DNA from: a virus | Virus record (IMG/VR): IMGVR_UViG_3300035670_000695 | Coordinates: 1-36,468 of that record | Direction: 5' to 3' (one strand) | DNA length: 36,468 nt | Shown here: one piece after another, positions 4,173 to 16,517 of the stretch | Position numbering within the stretch: position 1 is the first letter of the stretch | How the letters are laid out: each line of letters opens with the position of its first letter | Made by a program: the position numbers and the translations under genes | Notes under the pieces: model-generated | Databases searched by the model: none | What the model was told of the DNA's origin: nothing | The model's input: only the letters and a program-made list of their open reading frames with translations

Positions 4173-4199
4173 GCCGGGCAGCTGCAACAGTCGCCCGGC
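4173..4199 (+). other. Hairpin element, copy 1 of a four-member family
   Basis: GCCGGGC (4173-4179) pairs with GCCCGGC (4193-4199), and an inner CTG-CAA-CAG closes a three-base loop. It lies between the SSB-like gene and the HTH gene. The hairpin plus the next 13 nt recur almost unchanged at 12347. It has no T-run, so it is not a plain terminator. Confidence 0.7.
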
Positions 4200-6235: not shown

Positions 6236-7178
6236 TCCAGGATTTTACGCCATTATTCCTTCTAAAGTAAGATATGACAATTCTCTTACTTATGGAGCGC
6301 GCATAATTTATGCCGAAATTTCGGCTTTATGCAGTGAGAAAGGTTATTGCTGGGCCAATAATCAATACTTTGCTGAAAGGTTTCAAAACAGCAAAGACAC
6401 AATTTCTCGCTGGGTTTCCGACCTTGAAAAAGCAGGATATATAAAGAGCGAAATAGATCAGCATAGTGGAAACAATAGAAGGATTTATCTAGTGAATGCA
6501 AAGCTAGATTACAAGGAGCTAGAAAACGACTATCGGCAAAAATACGGTGAGGTATCCGTAAAAATACCTAAAGGGTATCCGCAAGAATGCCAAGAGGGTA
6601 TAGGCAAAAATGCCGAACATAGTAATACAGTTAATAATACACTTAATAATACAGATAATAGTAATAGCGCTAACGCGCATTTTTTTTCTCTTCAAAATGA
6701 GGCTCAAGAAAATTTAACGACTCAAAAAGCTGAGCCAACTACTCCTAAAGGAAGAAAAAAGAACGAGGATGTACACCGAGCCGACGTATTACAAAAAAAC
6801 GTAATACAATTAAAGGAAGAGTTTATGGCCGAGCTTCAGCGCAAAGGCATAGCCCAGTACTACGAGCCTTTCAAGGAAGTTTGGCAGGAGTGGATACGCT
6901 ACAAAAAGGAAATACGCACCAGCTACAAGTCTGCACAAAGTGCCGCTACCGGTTTTAAAAGCTTACTAGAAAAAAGCAACTACAACGCAGAAAAAGCGCT
7001 GCGGTTAGTAGAGAACACAGTGGCAAATGGCTGGAAGGGCATACAGGATGAAAAAGGAAAGCCAACCTACTCCAGCAAACCCAAAGTGCACCAGCAACAC
7101 GATGAAACAATAGAGTATTTAAACGAATCACGTCAACGCTTAATTTCTCAATTTGGACTTACTAATGAATACAAATAA
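6222..7178 (+). CDS. Replication initiator / replisome organiser, 318 residues
   Basis: The N-terminus (residues 1-95) is a winged helix of the phage replication-protein type (PSKVRYDNSLTYGARIIYAE, NQYFAERFQNSKDTISRWVSDLEKAGYI). An Asn-rich linker (about 132-150) follows. The C-terminal part (about 205-280) has the FKEVWQEWIRYKKE ... NGWKGI pattern of DnaD-like or lambda-O-like C-terminal domains that bring in the host helicase. The linker DNA carries 12-nt iteron-like repeats, so the origin may lie inside the gene as in lambda O. No phage helicase or polymerase is present, so host replication machinery must be used. Confidence 0.75.
   Translation: MKQSNPGFYAIIPSKVRYDNSLTYGARIIYAEISALCSEKGYCWANNQYFAERFQNSKDTISRWVSDLEKAGYIKSEIDQHSGNNRRIYLVNAKLDYKELENDYRQKYGEVSVKIPKGYPQECQEGIGKNAEHSNTVNNTLNNTDNSNSANAHFFSLQNEAQENLTTQKAEPTTPKGRKKNEDVHRADVLQKNVIQLKEEFMAELQRKGIAQYYEPFKEVWQEWIRYKKEIRTSYKSAQSAATGFKSLLEKSNYNAEKALRLVENTVANGWKGIQDEKGKPTYSSKPKVHQQHDETIEYLNESRQRLISQFGLTNEYK
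6621..6667 (+). repeat. Iteron-like 12-nt direct repeats, candidate origin
   Basis: AGTAATACAG (6621), TTAATAATACAC (6631), TTAATAATACAG (6643) and ATAATAGTAATAG (6655) are spaced about 12 nt apart in a very A/T-rich stretch, followed by AGCGCTAACGCGC and an eight-T run. They encode the initiator's Asn-rich linker. Origin function is inferred from the lambda-O arrangement. Confidence 0.5.
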
Positions 7179-7854
7179 GCCATTAAACATAACAGGCTAT
7201 AAAGATAAGCACGTCTATCAAAGTGCTGGCGGTATCACCTCAACCGTTTACCTGATGGACTGCATAGACTTTTTGCAGCAGGTGCCAGAAAAGTATTTTG
7301 ATCTAGCGGTTGTTGATCCGCCTTACGGGATTGGAGTTAATCATTCAATGGGAAGGAGAAAGGGTGATAAAAAATCTGAATACAAAAAAGCTGACTGGGA
7401 TTTTCAGCCACCTACAAAAAAGTATTTTGATCAGCTTTTTCATGGTTGCATCAATGCAATAATTTGGGGTGCAAATCATTTTATTAGCCGCATGCCTAAA
7501 GACAGTGCTTGCTGGCTTATGTGGGATAAAAAATTTAGTGAAGATGTTTCCTTTGCACAGTTTGAGTTAGCCTGGACTTCGTTAAACGGAACTTGTAAAA
7601 AATTTGATATGCACCCTTTCCAAAAAGATAGATTTCACCCGACACAAAAACCTGTACCGCTTTACGACTGGATTTACCAAAACTATGCAAAGCCTGGGCA
7701 GTTGATTTTAGACACGCATTTAGGCTCAGGGTCCAACCGCATAGCAGCACACAAAAATAATTTAGAGTTTGTTGGTGTTGAGCTAGACCCTGAGTATTTT
7801 TATGCTTCAGTAAAACGCTTTGAGCAATACACTTCACAACTAACACTTTTTTAA
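7165..7854 (+). CDS. DNA N6-adenine or N4-cytosine methyltransferase, 229 residues
   Basis: The catalytic motif DPPYG is at residues 51-55 and the SAM motif I ILDTHLGSGS at 181-190. The order catalytic-then-SAM marks a beta-class enzyme; HPTQKP (158-163) is typical. ATG 7165 is preferred to TTG 7153. It overlaps the initiator gene by 14 nt. No restriction endonuclease gene is adjacent, so it is an orphan, probably protecting phage DNA or marking the origin region. The short space between motifs suggests a small target-recognition region; specificity cannot be read. Confidence 0.9.
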   Translation: MNTNKPLNITGYKDKHVYQSAGGITSTVYLMDCIDFLQQVPEKYFDLAVVDPPYGIGVNHSMGRRKGDKKSEYKKADWDFQPPTKKYFDQLFHGCINAIIWGANHFISRMPKDSACWLMWDKKFSEDVSFAQFELAWTSLNGTCKKFDMHPFQKDRFHPTQKPVPLYDWIYQNYAKPGQLILDTHLGSGSNRIAAHKNNLEFVGVELDPEYFYASVKRFEQYTSQLTLF

Positions 7855-7855
7855 C

Positions 7856-8596
7856 ATGAATAAACTACAAATCTATCAAAAGCTTCCAGCGGAAACGCTA
7901 CAGCGCTGGGAGCAAATCCAGGCAGTAACACCTGCCAAGTGGAACCAGCAAACCGCACTAAGCTGCATGGATGCCTTAACGGTTTGGCCTCAGCTCAGGG
8001 TGACAACGTACGATGATGCGATAGAAGCGCAAACGCCTACGCTTGGCGCTGTCAGTTTCTATTTAGGTGAAGTACATGCTATACAGCTAATAAGCGACAT
8101 GATCGCAGCTGCCAGTCTTTTGCTAAACGCAGGTAAGAGTCTGCGCAAAGAGCAGTTTTTCCCGATTGCCGAGCTTCTCTACTCAGAGTTTAAACTGCTA
8201 ACGGTAGCAGACTTCCGCGCCTGCTTCCGGATGGCAGCGCTTGGCAAATTCGGCCAGGTATATGATCGCCTAGATGCTGAGGTAATAGCTGGATGGTGTA
8301 CACAGTATCGCGATGGCAAGTTAGCACACTGCGAGCAGGTGAACGCCCGGAAGCATGCGAACGCAGGCAAAGAACAAAACGCACAGAATGGCTCCACAAT
8401 GCCCGAATTTTTTAAGGAGTATATAAGACAGCGCGAAGTGGGTAAAATGCGCACACAGGCCGAATGGCAGCCTGATGCAGCTATTATACAGCTATGGCAG
8501 CAGGAGTATGAGCGCATACCGGAGGAGAACCGCCCGGACTGGTCTGTTTTCGTCAAGTATCAAACTGCTAAAACGCAGTCTAGGCTAAAAAAGTAG
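7856..8596 (+). CDS. Hypothetical protein of a Bacteroidota replication-associated type, 246 residues
   Basis: A mostly helical protein. The stretch YSEFKLLTVADFRACFRMA followed by GKFGQVYDRLDAEVI resembles a conserved family (DUF6633-like, from memory) seen next to replication genes in Bacteroidota mobile elements. It follows the methyltransferase by 1 nt and ends the replication operon. A helicase-loader-like role is possible, but no Walker motif is present. The C-terminus is basic (KTQSRLKK). Confidence 0.6.
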   Translation: MNKLQIYQKLPAETLQRWEQIQAVTPAKWNQQTALSCMDALTVWPQLRVTTYDDAIEAQTPTLGAVSFYLGEVHAIQLISDMIAAASLLLNAGKSLRKEQFFPIAELLYSEFKLLTVADFRACFRMAALGKFGQVYDRLDAEVIAGWCTQYRDGKLAHCEQVNARKHANAGKEQNAQNGSTMPEFFKEYIRQREVGKMRTQAEWQPDAAIIQLWQQEYERIPEENRPDWSVFVKYQTAKTQSRLKK

Positions 8597-12326: not shown

Positions 12327-12346
12327 AAGTGGTAAAGTGGTTATCA

Positions 12347-12373
12347 GCCGGGCTGCTGCAACAGTCGCCCGGC
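12347..12373 (+). other. Hairpin element, copy 2
   Basis: GCCGGGC (12347-12353) pairs with GCCCGGC (12367-12373), with inner CTG-CAA-CAG. Including the 13 nt after it (ending ACAAAAGCA), only two of 40 positions differ from copy 1 at 4173. There is no T-run. Confidence 0.7.
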
Positions 12374-12450
12374 TCACAAAAGCAGCACACACACAAAGCA
12401 GCGCAAAAGAGCGCTGGAACAATAACCGATACATGTGAAATGGGTTTTTT

Positions 12451-12482
12451 CTAGGTAGCTGCAATAGTTGCCTAGTTTTTTT
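12451..12482 (+). terminator. Terminator, copy 3 of the hairpin family
   Basis: CTAGG (12451-12455) with CCTAG (12471-12475) and the same inner design CTG-CAA-TAG give an 11-bp stem with wobble pairs, followed by seven T (12476-12482). The stem bases differ from copies 1 and 2 on both arms, while the core around CTGCAA stays. Confidence 0.72.
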
Positions 12483-12486
12483 AAAA

Positions 12487-12568
12487 TCGGGGTAACGGTT
12501 CAGCGGTTTATCTCTCACAACTGAGAAGTATTTTTCTCCCGCTGGCGGGTTCGATTCCCGCGCCTCAG
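12487..12568 (+). ncRNA. tRNA-like RNA, copy 1 (T-arm and acceptor but no D-arm)
   Basis: T-arm: GCGGG-TTCGATT-CCCGC (12545-12561), with a perfect 5-bp stem and a loop that fits the GTTCRANYC rule. Acceptor: TCGGGGT (12487-12493) with GCCTCAG (12562-12568), six of seven pairs counting wobbles. Where D and anticodon arms should be there is one 6-bp helix CAGCGG/CCGCTG (12501-12506 with 12539-12544), enclosing the hairpin TCTCA-CAAC-TGAGA. No valid seven-base anticodon loop is found, so it is not an ordinary tRNA; the plan recalls a D-armless tRNA or the tRNA-like end of tmRNA. A T7 tract follows at 12573. Confidence 0.55.
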
Positions 12569-12583
12569 CTAGTTTTTTTAAAA

Positions 12584-12665
12584 TCGGGGTAACGGTTCAG
12601 CGGTTTATCTCTCACAACTGAGAAGTATTTTTCTCCCGCTGGCGGGTTCGATTCCCGCGCCTCAG
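12584..12665 (+). ncRNA. tRNA-like RNA, copy 2
   Basis: The base-for-base duplicate of the element at 12487-12568, shifted by 97 bp, with the same T-arm, acceptor and central helix. It is followed by CTAG and five T. No CCA is encoded after either copy. Confidence 0.55.
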
Positions 12666-12687
12666 CTAGTTTTTCGGAGTTCGTCTA

Positions 12688-12721
12688 TTGGGCGCAGTCG
12701 TAATGATAGCGCCTATTTTTG
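12688..12721 (+). promoter_or_regulatory. Promoter overlapping a terminator
   Basis: TTG (12688-12690), a 23-nt spacer and TATTTTTG (12714-12721), identical in its -7 element to the promoter at 5760. The same bases form the T-run of the hairpin at 12689. Its transcript would start near 12728, just before the palindrome at 12739, and lead to the gene at 12809. Confidence 0.5.
12689..12720 (+). terminator. Terminator after the tRNA-like units
   Basis: TGGGCGC (12689-12695) pairs with GCGCCTA (12709-12715), seven pairs with one wobble, followed by five T. It would stop any transcript that passes both tRNA-like units. Confidence 0.6.
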
Positions 12722-12738: not shown

Positions 12739-12766
12739 ATGTCTACGACATTAATGTCGTAGACAT
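12739..12766 (+). promoter_or_regulatory. Perfect 28-bp palindrome, candidate operator
   Basis: The half ATGTCTACGACAT, the central TA, and the reverse-complement half pair over all 28 positions. Each half is itself an inverted repeat TGTC-n3-GACA. It lies 18 nt behind the -7 element at 12714-12721. The 10-mer AATGTCGTAG recurs at 5769-5778, just behind the promoter at 5760. A repressor operator is the simplest reading; a cruciform or an RNA hairpin in the leader are alternatives. Confidence 0.75.
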
Positions 12767-13174: not shown

Positions 13175-13801
13175 ATGCAACTGAAGCTAAACAAAATAAA
13201 ACCTAACCCGGCCAACCCGCGCATCATCAGGGATGAGCAATTCAAGAAACTAAAAGCTAGCCTTATCGAGTTTCCTCAAATGCTAGAAAAGCGCCCTATT
13301 GCAGTGACACGCGATGGCGATGGATACGTTGCTCTTGGTGGCAACCAGCGCCTCCGGGCCATGCTTGACATACAGTCGGAAATAGGTGATGCAGACTTTG
13401 AGAAGAGGCACAAAGTGCAGGCGGCTGAGATGGAAACATTGCTAGGCTACTTTGCAAAGGGTGTGCCTGTCGTAGACTGCACTGAGCTTACGCCGGCTCA
13501 GCAAAAGCGCTTTATTATAGCAGATAATATTCCTTTCGGAGAATGGGATTGGGAAGCGCTGGCAAACGAGTGGGATGTAGAGGAACTCCAGGACTGGGGG
13601 ATGGCTGTACCGAACTTGGCTTTTGACAACCAGGAGCCAAGTATGGAAGACTTGCTAGGTGAAGAAAAAAACAAACCAGCTTCTATTAAAATTACCTTTG
13701 AAAAGGTGGAAGATATAGAGCAGGCGCAAAAAGACATAGATGAGCTAATAAAAGAGAAGTATCCATCAGCGTACTACTCAGTAAGTACAGGAGAAATATG
13801 A
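13175..13801 (+). CDS. ParB-like nuclease-domain protein, 208 residues
   Basis: The N-terminal ParB/Srx fold is clear: LNKIKPNPANPRII (5-18), EQFKKLKASL (21-30), and the phosphate-binding GGNQRLRAM (55-63). It lacks a ParB centromere-binding HTH and ends in an acidic, helical domain (about 125-208). Stand-alone ParB-like proteins in phages often sit beside DNA-modifying enzymes. Here the Mom-like gene starts 4 nt before this stop, so the pair is translationally coupled. Likely roles are nicking, nucleotide hydrolysis or a helper of modification. Confidence 0.85.
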   Translation: MQLKLNKIKPNPANPRIIRDEQFKKLKASLIEFPQMLEKRPIAVTRDGDGYVALGGNQRLRAMLDIQSEIGDADFEKRHKVQAAEMETLLGYFAKGVPVVDCTELTPAQQKRFIIADNIPFGEWDWEALANEWDVEELQDWGMAVPNLAFDNQEPSMEDLLGEEKNKPASIKITFEKVEDIEQAQKDIDELIKEKYPSAYYSVSTGEI

Positions 13802-14415
13802 AATTAGAACTTGCATCAGCTAAGGCTGTAAGGTATGCCTGTTTGAATTTTCATTATGCAAAAGCAGTACCAACTGTTAGCCTTTCATTTAATGTCTTTA
13901 ACTCAAAGAATGAATGGTGTGGTGTAATATGCTATGGTAAAGGCGCTAATACCAATATATCAAAACCTTATGGTTTGATGCAAGGTGAAGTTATTGAGCT
14001 TTTGAGAATGGCATTAAATGGGAAACAGGAAAGCACAACAAAAGCAATGTCAATAAGTTTAAAACTTATAAAAAAATACGCACCTCTTGTGAAGCTGGTT
14101 GTTTCTTATGCTGACTATGAGCAGGGTCATATAGGTACAATTTATCAAGCTACCAACTGGTATTATACTGGATACAGTACTGGCACAGACGTAATAGTGA
14201 ATGGCAAAAGGCAGCATAAAAAAACAATAGCGTCTAAATTTAATACCAATTCTATAGAAAGTTTAAAAAGCAAAGGCTTAGATATAAAAACTCAAAAATC
14301 AAAACCTAAATGGAGGTATATATATCCAATAGACAAAAGAATGATAGAGATTTGCAAAAAGCTGCAAAAACCATACCCTAAAAAAGAAAATATAGCAGTA
14401 ACTTTGAATACTTAA
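13798..14415 (+). CDS. Mom-like DNA base-modification protein, 205 residues
   Basis: It resembles the phage Mu Mom family, which alters adenine in DNA to block restriction: NFHYAKAV (17-24), VICYGKGAN (43-51), EVIELLRMAL (64-73), SISLKLIKK (85-93), VVSYADYEQGHIG (101-113) and IYQATNWYYTG (115-125). These follow the Mom GNAT-type order of conserved blocks. The basic C-terminus (KPKWRYIYP) is also Mom-like. The stop lies 5 nt before a tRNA-like gene. The family match is by pattern; the actual modified base is unknown. Confidence 0.78.
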   Translation: MKLELASAKAVRYACLNFHYAKAVPTVSLSFNVFNSKNEWCGVICYGKGANTNISKPYGLMQGEVIELLRMALNGKQESTTKAMSISLKLIKKYAPLVKLVVSYADYEQGHIGTIYQATNWYYTGYSTGTDVIVNGKRQHKKTIASKFNTNSIESLKSKGLDIKTQKSKPKWRYIYPIDKRMIEICKKLQKPYPKKENIAVTLNT

Positions 14416-14420
14416 TACAT

Positions 14421-14492
14421 GCGCTGTAAGCATTTATGGATGATGCGATAGGTTTCCAACCTGGATAAGGCGTTCAATTCGACCACAGCGCT
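14421..14492 (+). tRNA. tRNA-Gly(UCC)-like gene
   Basis: A cloverleaf can be drawn. Acceptor GCGCTGT/ACAGCGC (14421-14427 with 14485-14491) is perfect. D-stem GCAT/ATGC has a GG in its loop. The anticodon loop TTTCCAA (14453-14459) gives UCC. The T-loop GTTCAATTC fits the consensus. Weak points are A instead of U at position 8, a T-stem with three of five pairs, one mismatch in the anticodon stem, and no encoded CCA. It may be functional, degenerate or a decoy. Confidence 0.6.
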
Positions 14493-16484: not shown

Positions 16485-16517
16485 AGGCGTTGCGTTGTAA
16501 TAATGCAGCGCCTTTTT
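16485..16517 (+). terminator. Rho-independent terminator after the terminase
   Basis: AGGCGTTGC (16485-16493) pairs with GCAGCGCCT (16505-16513), nine pairs with one G-T wobble, then TTTTT (16513-16517). It separates packaging from the tail operon. Confidence 0.82.

Follow-up and report, generated by a model that had tools for sequence, protein, structure and literature searches.

A staphylococcal non-proteogenic tRNA-Gly serves cell-wall peptides, and phage T4 encodes two small stable RNAs, C and D, whose job is unknown and which are tied to tRNA-type processing. Mom-type modification puts a glycinamide-like group on adenine. The donor in this reaction has been described as an acyl-CoA such as glycyl-CoA (PMC7824862). 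We analyzed a 36,468-base phage record from IMG/VR (its full length is referred to as the window), in which terminase, portal, tape-measure, replication-initiation and lysis genes are recognizable. Besides two tandem tRNA-like units, the window encodes a tRNA-Gly-like RNA adjoining a mom gene, 1.8 kb downstream of the units (Table 1). This mom-linked RNA, of which an earlier note on the same DNA made no mention, is the most valuable lead in the window and has the strongest evidence, rather than the tandem units.

The window mom is placed between a ParB-like gene and the terminase genes. Its product matched the solved phage Mu Mom (8bv8) by profile (E 3.7e-28), and 8bv8 was also the top fold match (Foldseek E 2.7e-11) of its AlphaFold2 model (pLDDT 92.9); judged by sequence and predicted fold, the gene is a Mom enzyme. 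The RNA begins 6 nt past the mom stop codon, has a T-stem of the form GG-CG/CG-A-CC with a bulged A, and reaches 24.7 bits against the Rfam tRNA model, which is under the cut-off. Defining features of the mom-linked group were a GCG..CGC acceptor with U73, an anticodon loop containing CC, a T-stem with a bulged A and a location beside mom, all of which are found in the window RNA. None of these features is found in the tandem units, and the phages L002–L005, relatives described below, have such units but no mom; the two RNA classes are therefore separate. In L004 and L005, what reads as a glycosyltransferase-like gene (5484–6332 in L004) fills mom’s place after the ParB-like gene, which suggests that DNA-modification modules have been swapped.

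The comparison across phages comprised 93 mom loci (80 from an IMG/VR scan, 12 from isolates and earlier scans, and the window), which are partly non-independent, the 80 being the best-matching relatives of the window Mom. A tRNA-Gly-like RNA was located at the end of mom or at most 40 nt from it in 36 of the 93, including 11 on the opposite strand. With a strict descriptor, 35 RNAs were recovered near mom in these loci, versus 2 elsewhere in 1.4 Mb (one in 543 kb of mom loci and one in 940 kb of other loci). When 34 RNAs were examined singly, G1–C72, C2–G71 and G3–C70 together with CC in the anticodon loop were present in every one and U73 in 32; this combination is the bacterial glycine identity set. 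The bulged A in the 3′ strand of the T-stem occurred in 31/31 aligned RNAs, the search having permitted any base or none and the alignment omitting three RNAs without the bulge. Position 33 was not U in 14 of the aligned RNAs, and the anticodon loop was 6 nt long in 13. RNAalifold revealed two-sided changes at 13 of 18 pairs, including pairs of the D-stem, which had no role in selection.

The RNA is concentrated in the part of the family closest to the window Mom and is missing at several other mom loci, e.g., those of Listeria phage A511 and Enterococcus phage phiEf11. Among isolated phages, it is present in Salinibacter phage B2_17, where it is annotated as tRNA-Gly; Microbacterium phage Appa has a canonical tRNA-Gly on the other strand, with the bulge absent, and the RNA of Arthrobacter phage BarretLemon (L106), also without the bulge, is unannotated and overlaps the mom coding end. 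A tRNA-Gly-like RNA adjoins mom in the window (13798–14492 for the pair), L008 (7425–7496), L105 (2106–2178), L106 (2095–2165) and L110–L150, and in L114 it lies inside the mom ORF. L058 carries two divergent mom genes in tandem (6564–7262 and 7306–7965), with a Gly RNA after the second (loop CAACCAG, A33). An anticodon-less match between these two genes (7236–7296) was considered as a bridge between the RNA classes and rejected as probable chance because of its low score and its overlap with mom coding sequence and a ribosome-binding site.

The linkage of a glycine-identity tRNA to mom, combined with features expected to impair decoding and with a T-stem bulge expected to hinder EF-Tu binding, suggests that glycyl-tRNA is Mom’s donor. 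The RNA thus bears on the open question of the glycinamide donor in Mom-type DNA modification, and from its sequence it looks like a glycine supply for that modification rather than for protein synthesis. The staphylococcal tRNA-Gly is its closest analogue, with Gly identity retained and translation features weakened; unlike it, the mom-linked RNA is phage-encoded, tied to a DNA-modifying enzyme and marked by the bulged A. If true, an aminoacyl-tRNA would donate a DNA base modification, and phages would bring a private tRNA for that job. No earlier report of a Mom–tRNA linkage was found in the open literature, with few subscription papers or preprints covered. We see an even chance that this lineage has two non-translational tRNA surrogates, namely anticodon-less three-way-junction mimics and a bulged-T-stem tRNA-Gly delivering glycine to Mom; the tandem units may have a related trans-acting role.

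Table 1. Positions in the window of the mom locus, the tandem tRNA-like units and the neighboring elements.
Feature	Position	Strand	Remarks
Hairpin, conserved apex G-Y-Y-(GYAAY)-R-R-U	12346..12374	+	near-identical copy at 4173–4199
Terminator-like hairpin	12451..12475	+	GCAAU pentaloop, then T7; directly upstream of unit 1
Perfect tandem array	12472..12674	+	97-bp period, 2.1 copies, 100% match (Tandem Repeats Finder)
tRNA-like unit 1	12489..12566	+	no anticodon arm
Unit 1 acceptor strands	5′ 12489–12493; 3′ 12562–12566	+	
Unit 1 central helix	12501–12506/12539–12544	+	
Unit 1 inner hairpin	12513–12517/12522–12526	+	
Unit 1 T-arm	stem 12545–12549/12557–12561; loop 12550–12556	+	
tRNA-like unit 2	12586..12663	+	same sequence as unit 1
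GYAAY-loop hairpin	12690..12714	+	downstream of unit 2, with a T-run after it
28-bp perfect DNA palindrome ATGTCTACGACATTAATGTCGTAGACAT	12739..12766	+	upstream of gene 12809; folds as a long hairpin
ParB-like gene	13175..13801	+	kept beside the tRNA-like locus in 5/5 phages
mom	13798..14415	+	Mom DNA-hypermodification family, GNAT fold; PF25680 E 1.8e-38
mom-linked tRNA-Gly-like RNA	14421..14492	+	acceptor GCGCTGT/ACAGCGC, U73, anticodon loop TTTCCAA

The earlier note had described two identical 97-bp units within a non-coding hub, and both the setting and the repeat were borne out, the latter by Tandem Repeats Finder. The array is edged by three CTAGTTTTT repeats, at its start, middle and end (about 12472, 12569 and 12666). 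Unconstrained minimum free energy (MFE) folding also returned the T-arm, the acceptor and the one 6-bp helix with an inner hairpin that the note had proposed: the acceptor GGGGU/GCCUC forms 5 bp, the central helix CAGCGG/CCGCUG surrounds a UCUCA/UGAGA hairpin, and the T-arm is canonical (GCGGG-UUCGAUU-CCCGC). Extended to 7 bp, the acceptor includes a C x A mismatch and ends in a U.G pair. The MFE z-scores were modest, from -1.7 to -2.4 versus shuffles. The suggestion of refolding helices in the same note proved weak and unsupported, as the window’s GAGAA/UUCUC alternative is broken in L002 and L003, where the three-way junction is retained.

Close relatives were obtained by a TerL scan, which identified L002 and L003 (97–98% amino-acid identity) and L004 and L005 (81%). 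In each of the five phages with at least 81% terminase identity, among them the window, one or two tRNA-like RNAs occupy the same locus, with an M15-peptidase/small gene on one side and the ParB-like gene on the other. L002 and L003 encode RNA1, a homologue of the window unit (about 91%), and then a distinct RNA2; L004 encodes RNAa and RNAb, and L005, in which one RNA was lost, RNAa alone. The RNAs of L004 and L005 have no sequence kinship with RNA1 or RNA2. By unconstrained MFE, the window unit, RNA1, RNA2 and RNAa all fold into an acceptor, one central helix and a T-arm. Across the group, this architecture with the anticodon arm missing recurs in four sequence-unrelated versions. Acceptor sequences and discriminator bases (A, C or G73) differ between the versions, and RNAa of L004 has a mismatch near the acceptor. 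RNAb of L004 scores 44.7 bits against the Rfam tRNA model (cut-off 29) and has an anticodon arm cut to 11 nt, and the more distant relative L011 encodes a 132-nt tRNA-like RNA (1642–1773; 37.2 bits to the same model) with a T-arm and a long structured insert that replaces the anticodon arm; the D-arms of both are of class II (Leu-like). Scans of IMG/VR with the exact T-arm pattern and a D-region pattern yielded nothing past L002 and L003, and isolated phages gave no match when searched at the nucleotide level with the hub of the window and the RNAs of the relatives as queries.

Base pairing in this group is largely maintained. RNA1 retains 21/21 pairs in three phages, with two two-sided changes, and the central helix and T-stem of RNAa retain 14/14, their changes being two-sided in two cases and one-sided in three; in RNA2, three one-sided changes keep pairing and one pair is broken. 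Over all versions, nearly all stem changes preserve pairing, four of them being two-sided. When L002 and L003 are compared, the linker joining RNA1 to RNA2 cannot be aligned and has a different length in each, whereas the RNAs themselves align at about 90% or better. Variation falls in the inner loops and linkers and not in the T-arm, whose retention in relatives the earlier note had made a touchstone of its proposal. The relatives within reach amounted to five phages, and independent events are few because L002/L003 and L004/L005 are sister pairs; shuffle controls for pair maintenance were weak on such tiny alignments, 10–25% of the shuffles at least equaling what was observed. Of the two-sided changes in RNA1, one in the T-stem arrived with an RNA1/RNA2 chimera, not by point mutation; the T-stem covariation of RNA1 versus L003 is accounted for in part by this chimera and not wholly by independent compensation. 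A three-way-junction descriptor applied to 2.07 Mb gave 10 distinct matches (six at the locus in the phage group, two real tRNAs and two probable chance hits), and three matches overall on shuffled sequence. The tandem units are a three-way-junction RNA and not a chance fold; the pair maintenance is good evidence of function of the tRNA-like RNAs, not final because the alignments are tiny and the sister pairs non-independent.

That the units are not ordinary tRNAs, as the earlier note had it, was upheld. ARAGORN and Rfam at gathering thresholds made no call at the units, the top sub-threshold match being tRNA-Sec (15.3 bits), and an anticodon arm with a 7-nt loop is absent, the hairpin loop measuring just 4 nt (window and L003) or 3 nt (L002). 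The unit resembles canonical tRNA (RF00005) in having an acceptor stacked by a perfect T-arm, with a 5-bp T-stem and the loop TTCGATT conforming to TTCRANY; unlike canonical tRNA, it has no anticodon arm or D-stem, its acceptor pairs over 5 bp, or over 7 bp if one mismatch is allowed, and it falls below threshold on every tRNA model. It is not a decoding tRNA. Membership in tmRNA is likewise not supported: ARAGORN and Rfam find no tmRNA at the units, and their sole tmRNA-family match is a 17-nt stretch of the T-arm. An acceptor, a T-arm and one helix replacing the anticodon arm are shared with the tRNA-like domain of tmRNA, and the GG-bearing stretch of RNA1 and RNA2, by our reading, sits where tmRNA has a stemless D-loop; unlike tmRNA, the units, at about 85 nt, contain no tag reading frame, pseudoknots or G3.U70. 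The T4 RNAs C and D, compared by description, are also small and phage-encoded; unlike the tandem units, they sit in a tRNA cluster.

The best reading of the tandem unit, judging from sequence and predicted fold, is a real non-decoding tRNA mimic. As an explanation of the whole, we tentatively prefer non-decoding tRNA-mimic genes that were recombined and duplicated and whose host-matured products act as a trans-acting decoy, and we rate this account at slightly less than an even chance. The unit RNA would be matured via the host tRNA 3′-end pathway (RNase P/Z, CCA addition, elbow-binding enzymes) and would act in trans on a host factor that reads the tRNA end or elbow, not the anticodon, e.g., a defence enzyme whose targets are tRNA 3′ ends. 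Serving as a decoy would be the likeliest job for the units and is the least certain step; it is favored because the versions have their shape in common and not a synthetase identity. A single amino-acid identity is unlikely, since neither acceptor sequence nor discriminator base is shared. The label of an undescribed system, applied to this RNA class, is plausible. If the units are expressed, they would represent a compact non-decoding tRNA-mimic class overlooked by standard tRNA finders and open a way to study how phages make use of host tRNA-end enzymes or fend them off.

The units could instead serve a phage enzyme as dedicated aminoacyl-RNA donors, relying on a synthetase that ignores the anticodon (Ser, Leu, Ala or His type). 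The same phage has a clear candidate donor RNA beside mom, the hub adjoins ParB-like and DNA-modification genes, and the Leu-like RNAs of L004 and L011 match the Rfam tRNA model; yet acceptors and discriminators vary among the RNAs, the units have neither G3.U70 nor the Gly signature, mom is missing from L002–L005, and no further tRNA-dependent transferase was recognized, so that we regard a donor role as unlikely. Similarly doubtful is a reading of the units as phage tRNA genes in decay that no longer have a function, duplicated by a neutral accident. The missing anticodon arm, the imperfect window acceptor, the loss of one RNA from L005 and the chimeric window copy would fit such decay, but pairing survives stem changes while the linker has diverged past alignment, the T-arm stays constant as inner loops and linkers change, and the three-way junction recurs in four unrelated sequences. 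A position between gene blocks, with T-run hairpins on the flanks, would suit a cis element, i.e., a site of RNase P/Z cleavage or an mRNA-end shield between the lysis-side and the ParB/terminase-side transcripts; with one to two copies of variable sequence, and an array already preceded by a strong terminator-like hairpin, this is improbable to a greater degree. An attP remnant, derived from a host tRNA 3′ part gained by integration, is hardly credible, even though a T-arm and acceptor 3′ half make up the classical attachment core. No PF00589 (tyrosine integrase) or PF00239 (resolvase) match was obtained in the window record or its four relatives, all five possibly fragments, with working positive controls, so the absence of an integrase claimed in the earlier note stands for these five records and an attachment-site origin is unlikely; moreover, a TerL scan of 84,980 bacterial genomes found no prophage relative, and the relatives hold pairs of different RNAs instead of one core.

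As for the origin of the array, the window unit corresponds to the 5′ half of RNA1 joined to the T-arm/acceptor 3′ half of RNA2 of L002 and L003, its last 25 bases being those of L002 RNA2, and the window copy has the look of a chimera between two neighboring RNAs. The 5-bp acceptor opens with G-C in the window and with A-U in RNA1 of L002 and L003; therefore, both strands have changed. Recombination of RNA1 with RNA2 would have produced the unit, which would then have been duplicated through the CTAGTTTTT repeats, for which unequal recombination offers a ready path. It is also possible that the perfect 97-bp duplication is an assembly artefact of the metagenome contig.

Several further elements were noted around these loci. 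The palindrome in the hub, missing from L002 and L003, is a possible operator. In three related phages, a tRNA-Gly(CCC)-like RNA or fragment (L010, 3850–3922; L098, about 11934; L093, about 6392) is found where a gene that reads as a DNA methyltransferase ends; ARAGORN missed these RNAs in the scanned loci. The hairpin with the G-Y-Y-(GYAAY)-R-R-U apex recurs between genes, at the four window sites given in Table 1 and at 16486–16512, as well as in L002–L005. Its apex lies on the coding strand and a T-run follows many of the copies; stems vary, with the apex and the third-pair G.U constant. It looks like a phage-specific terminator or protein-binding hairpin. An IMG/VR scan for its core beyond the phage group returned mostly chance 15-mers without a stem, and these were set aside. 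In L011, a terminator whose loop is GTAAT comes after the tRNA-like RNA.
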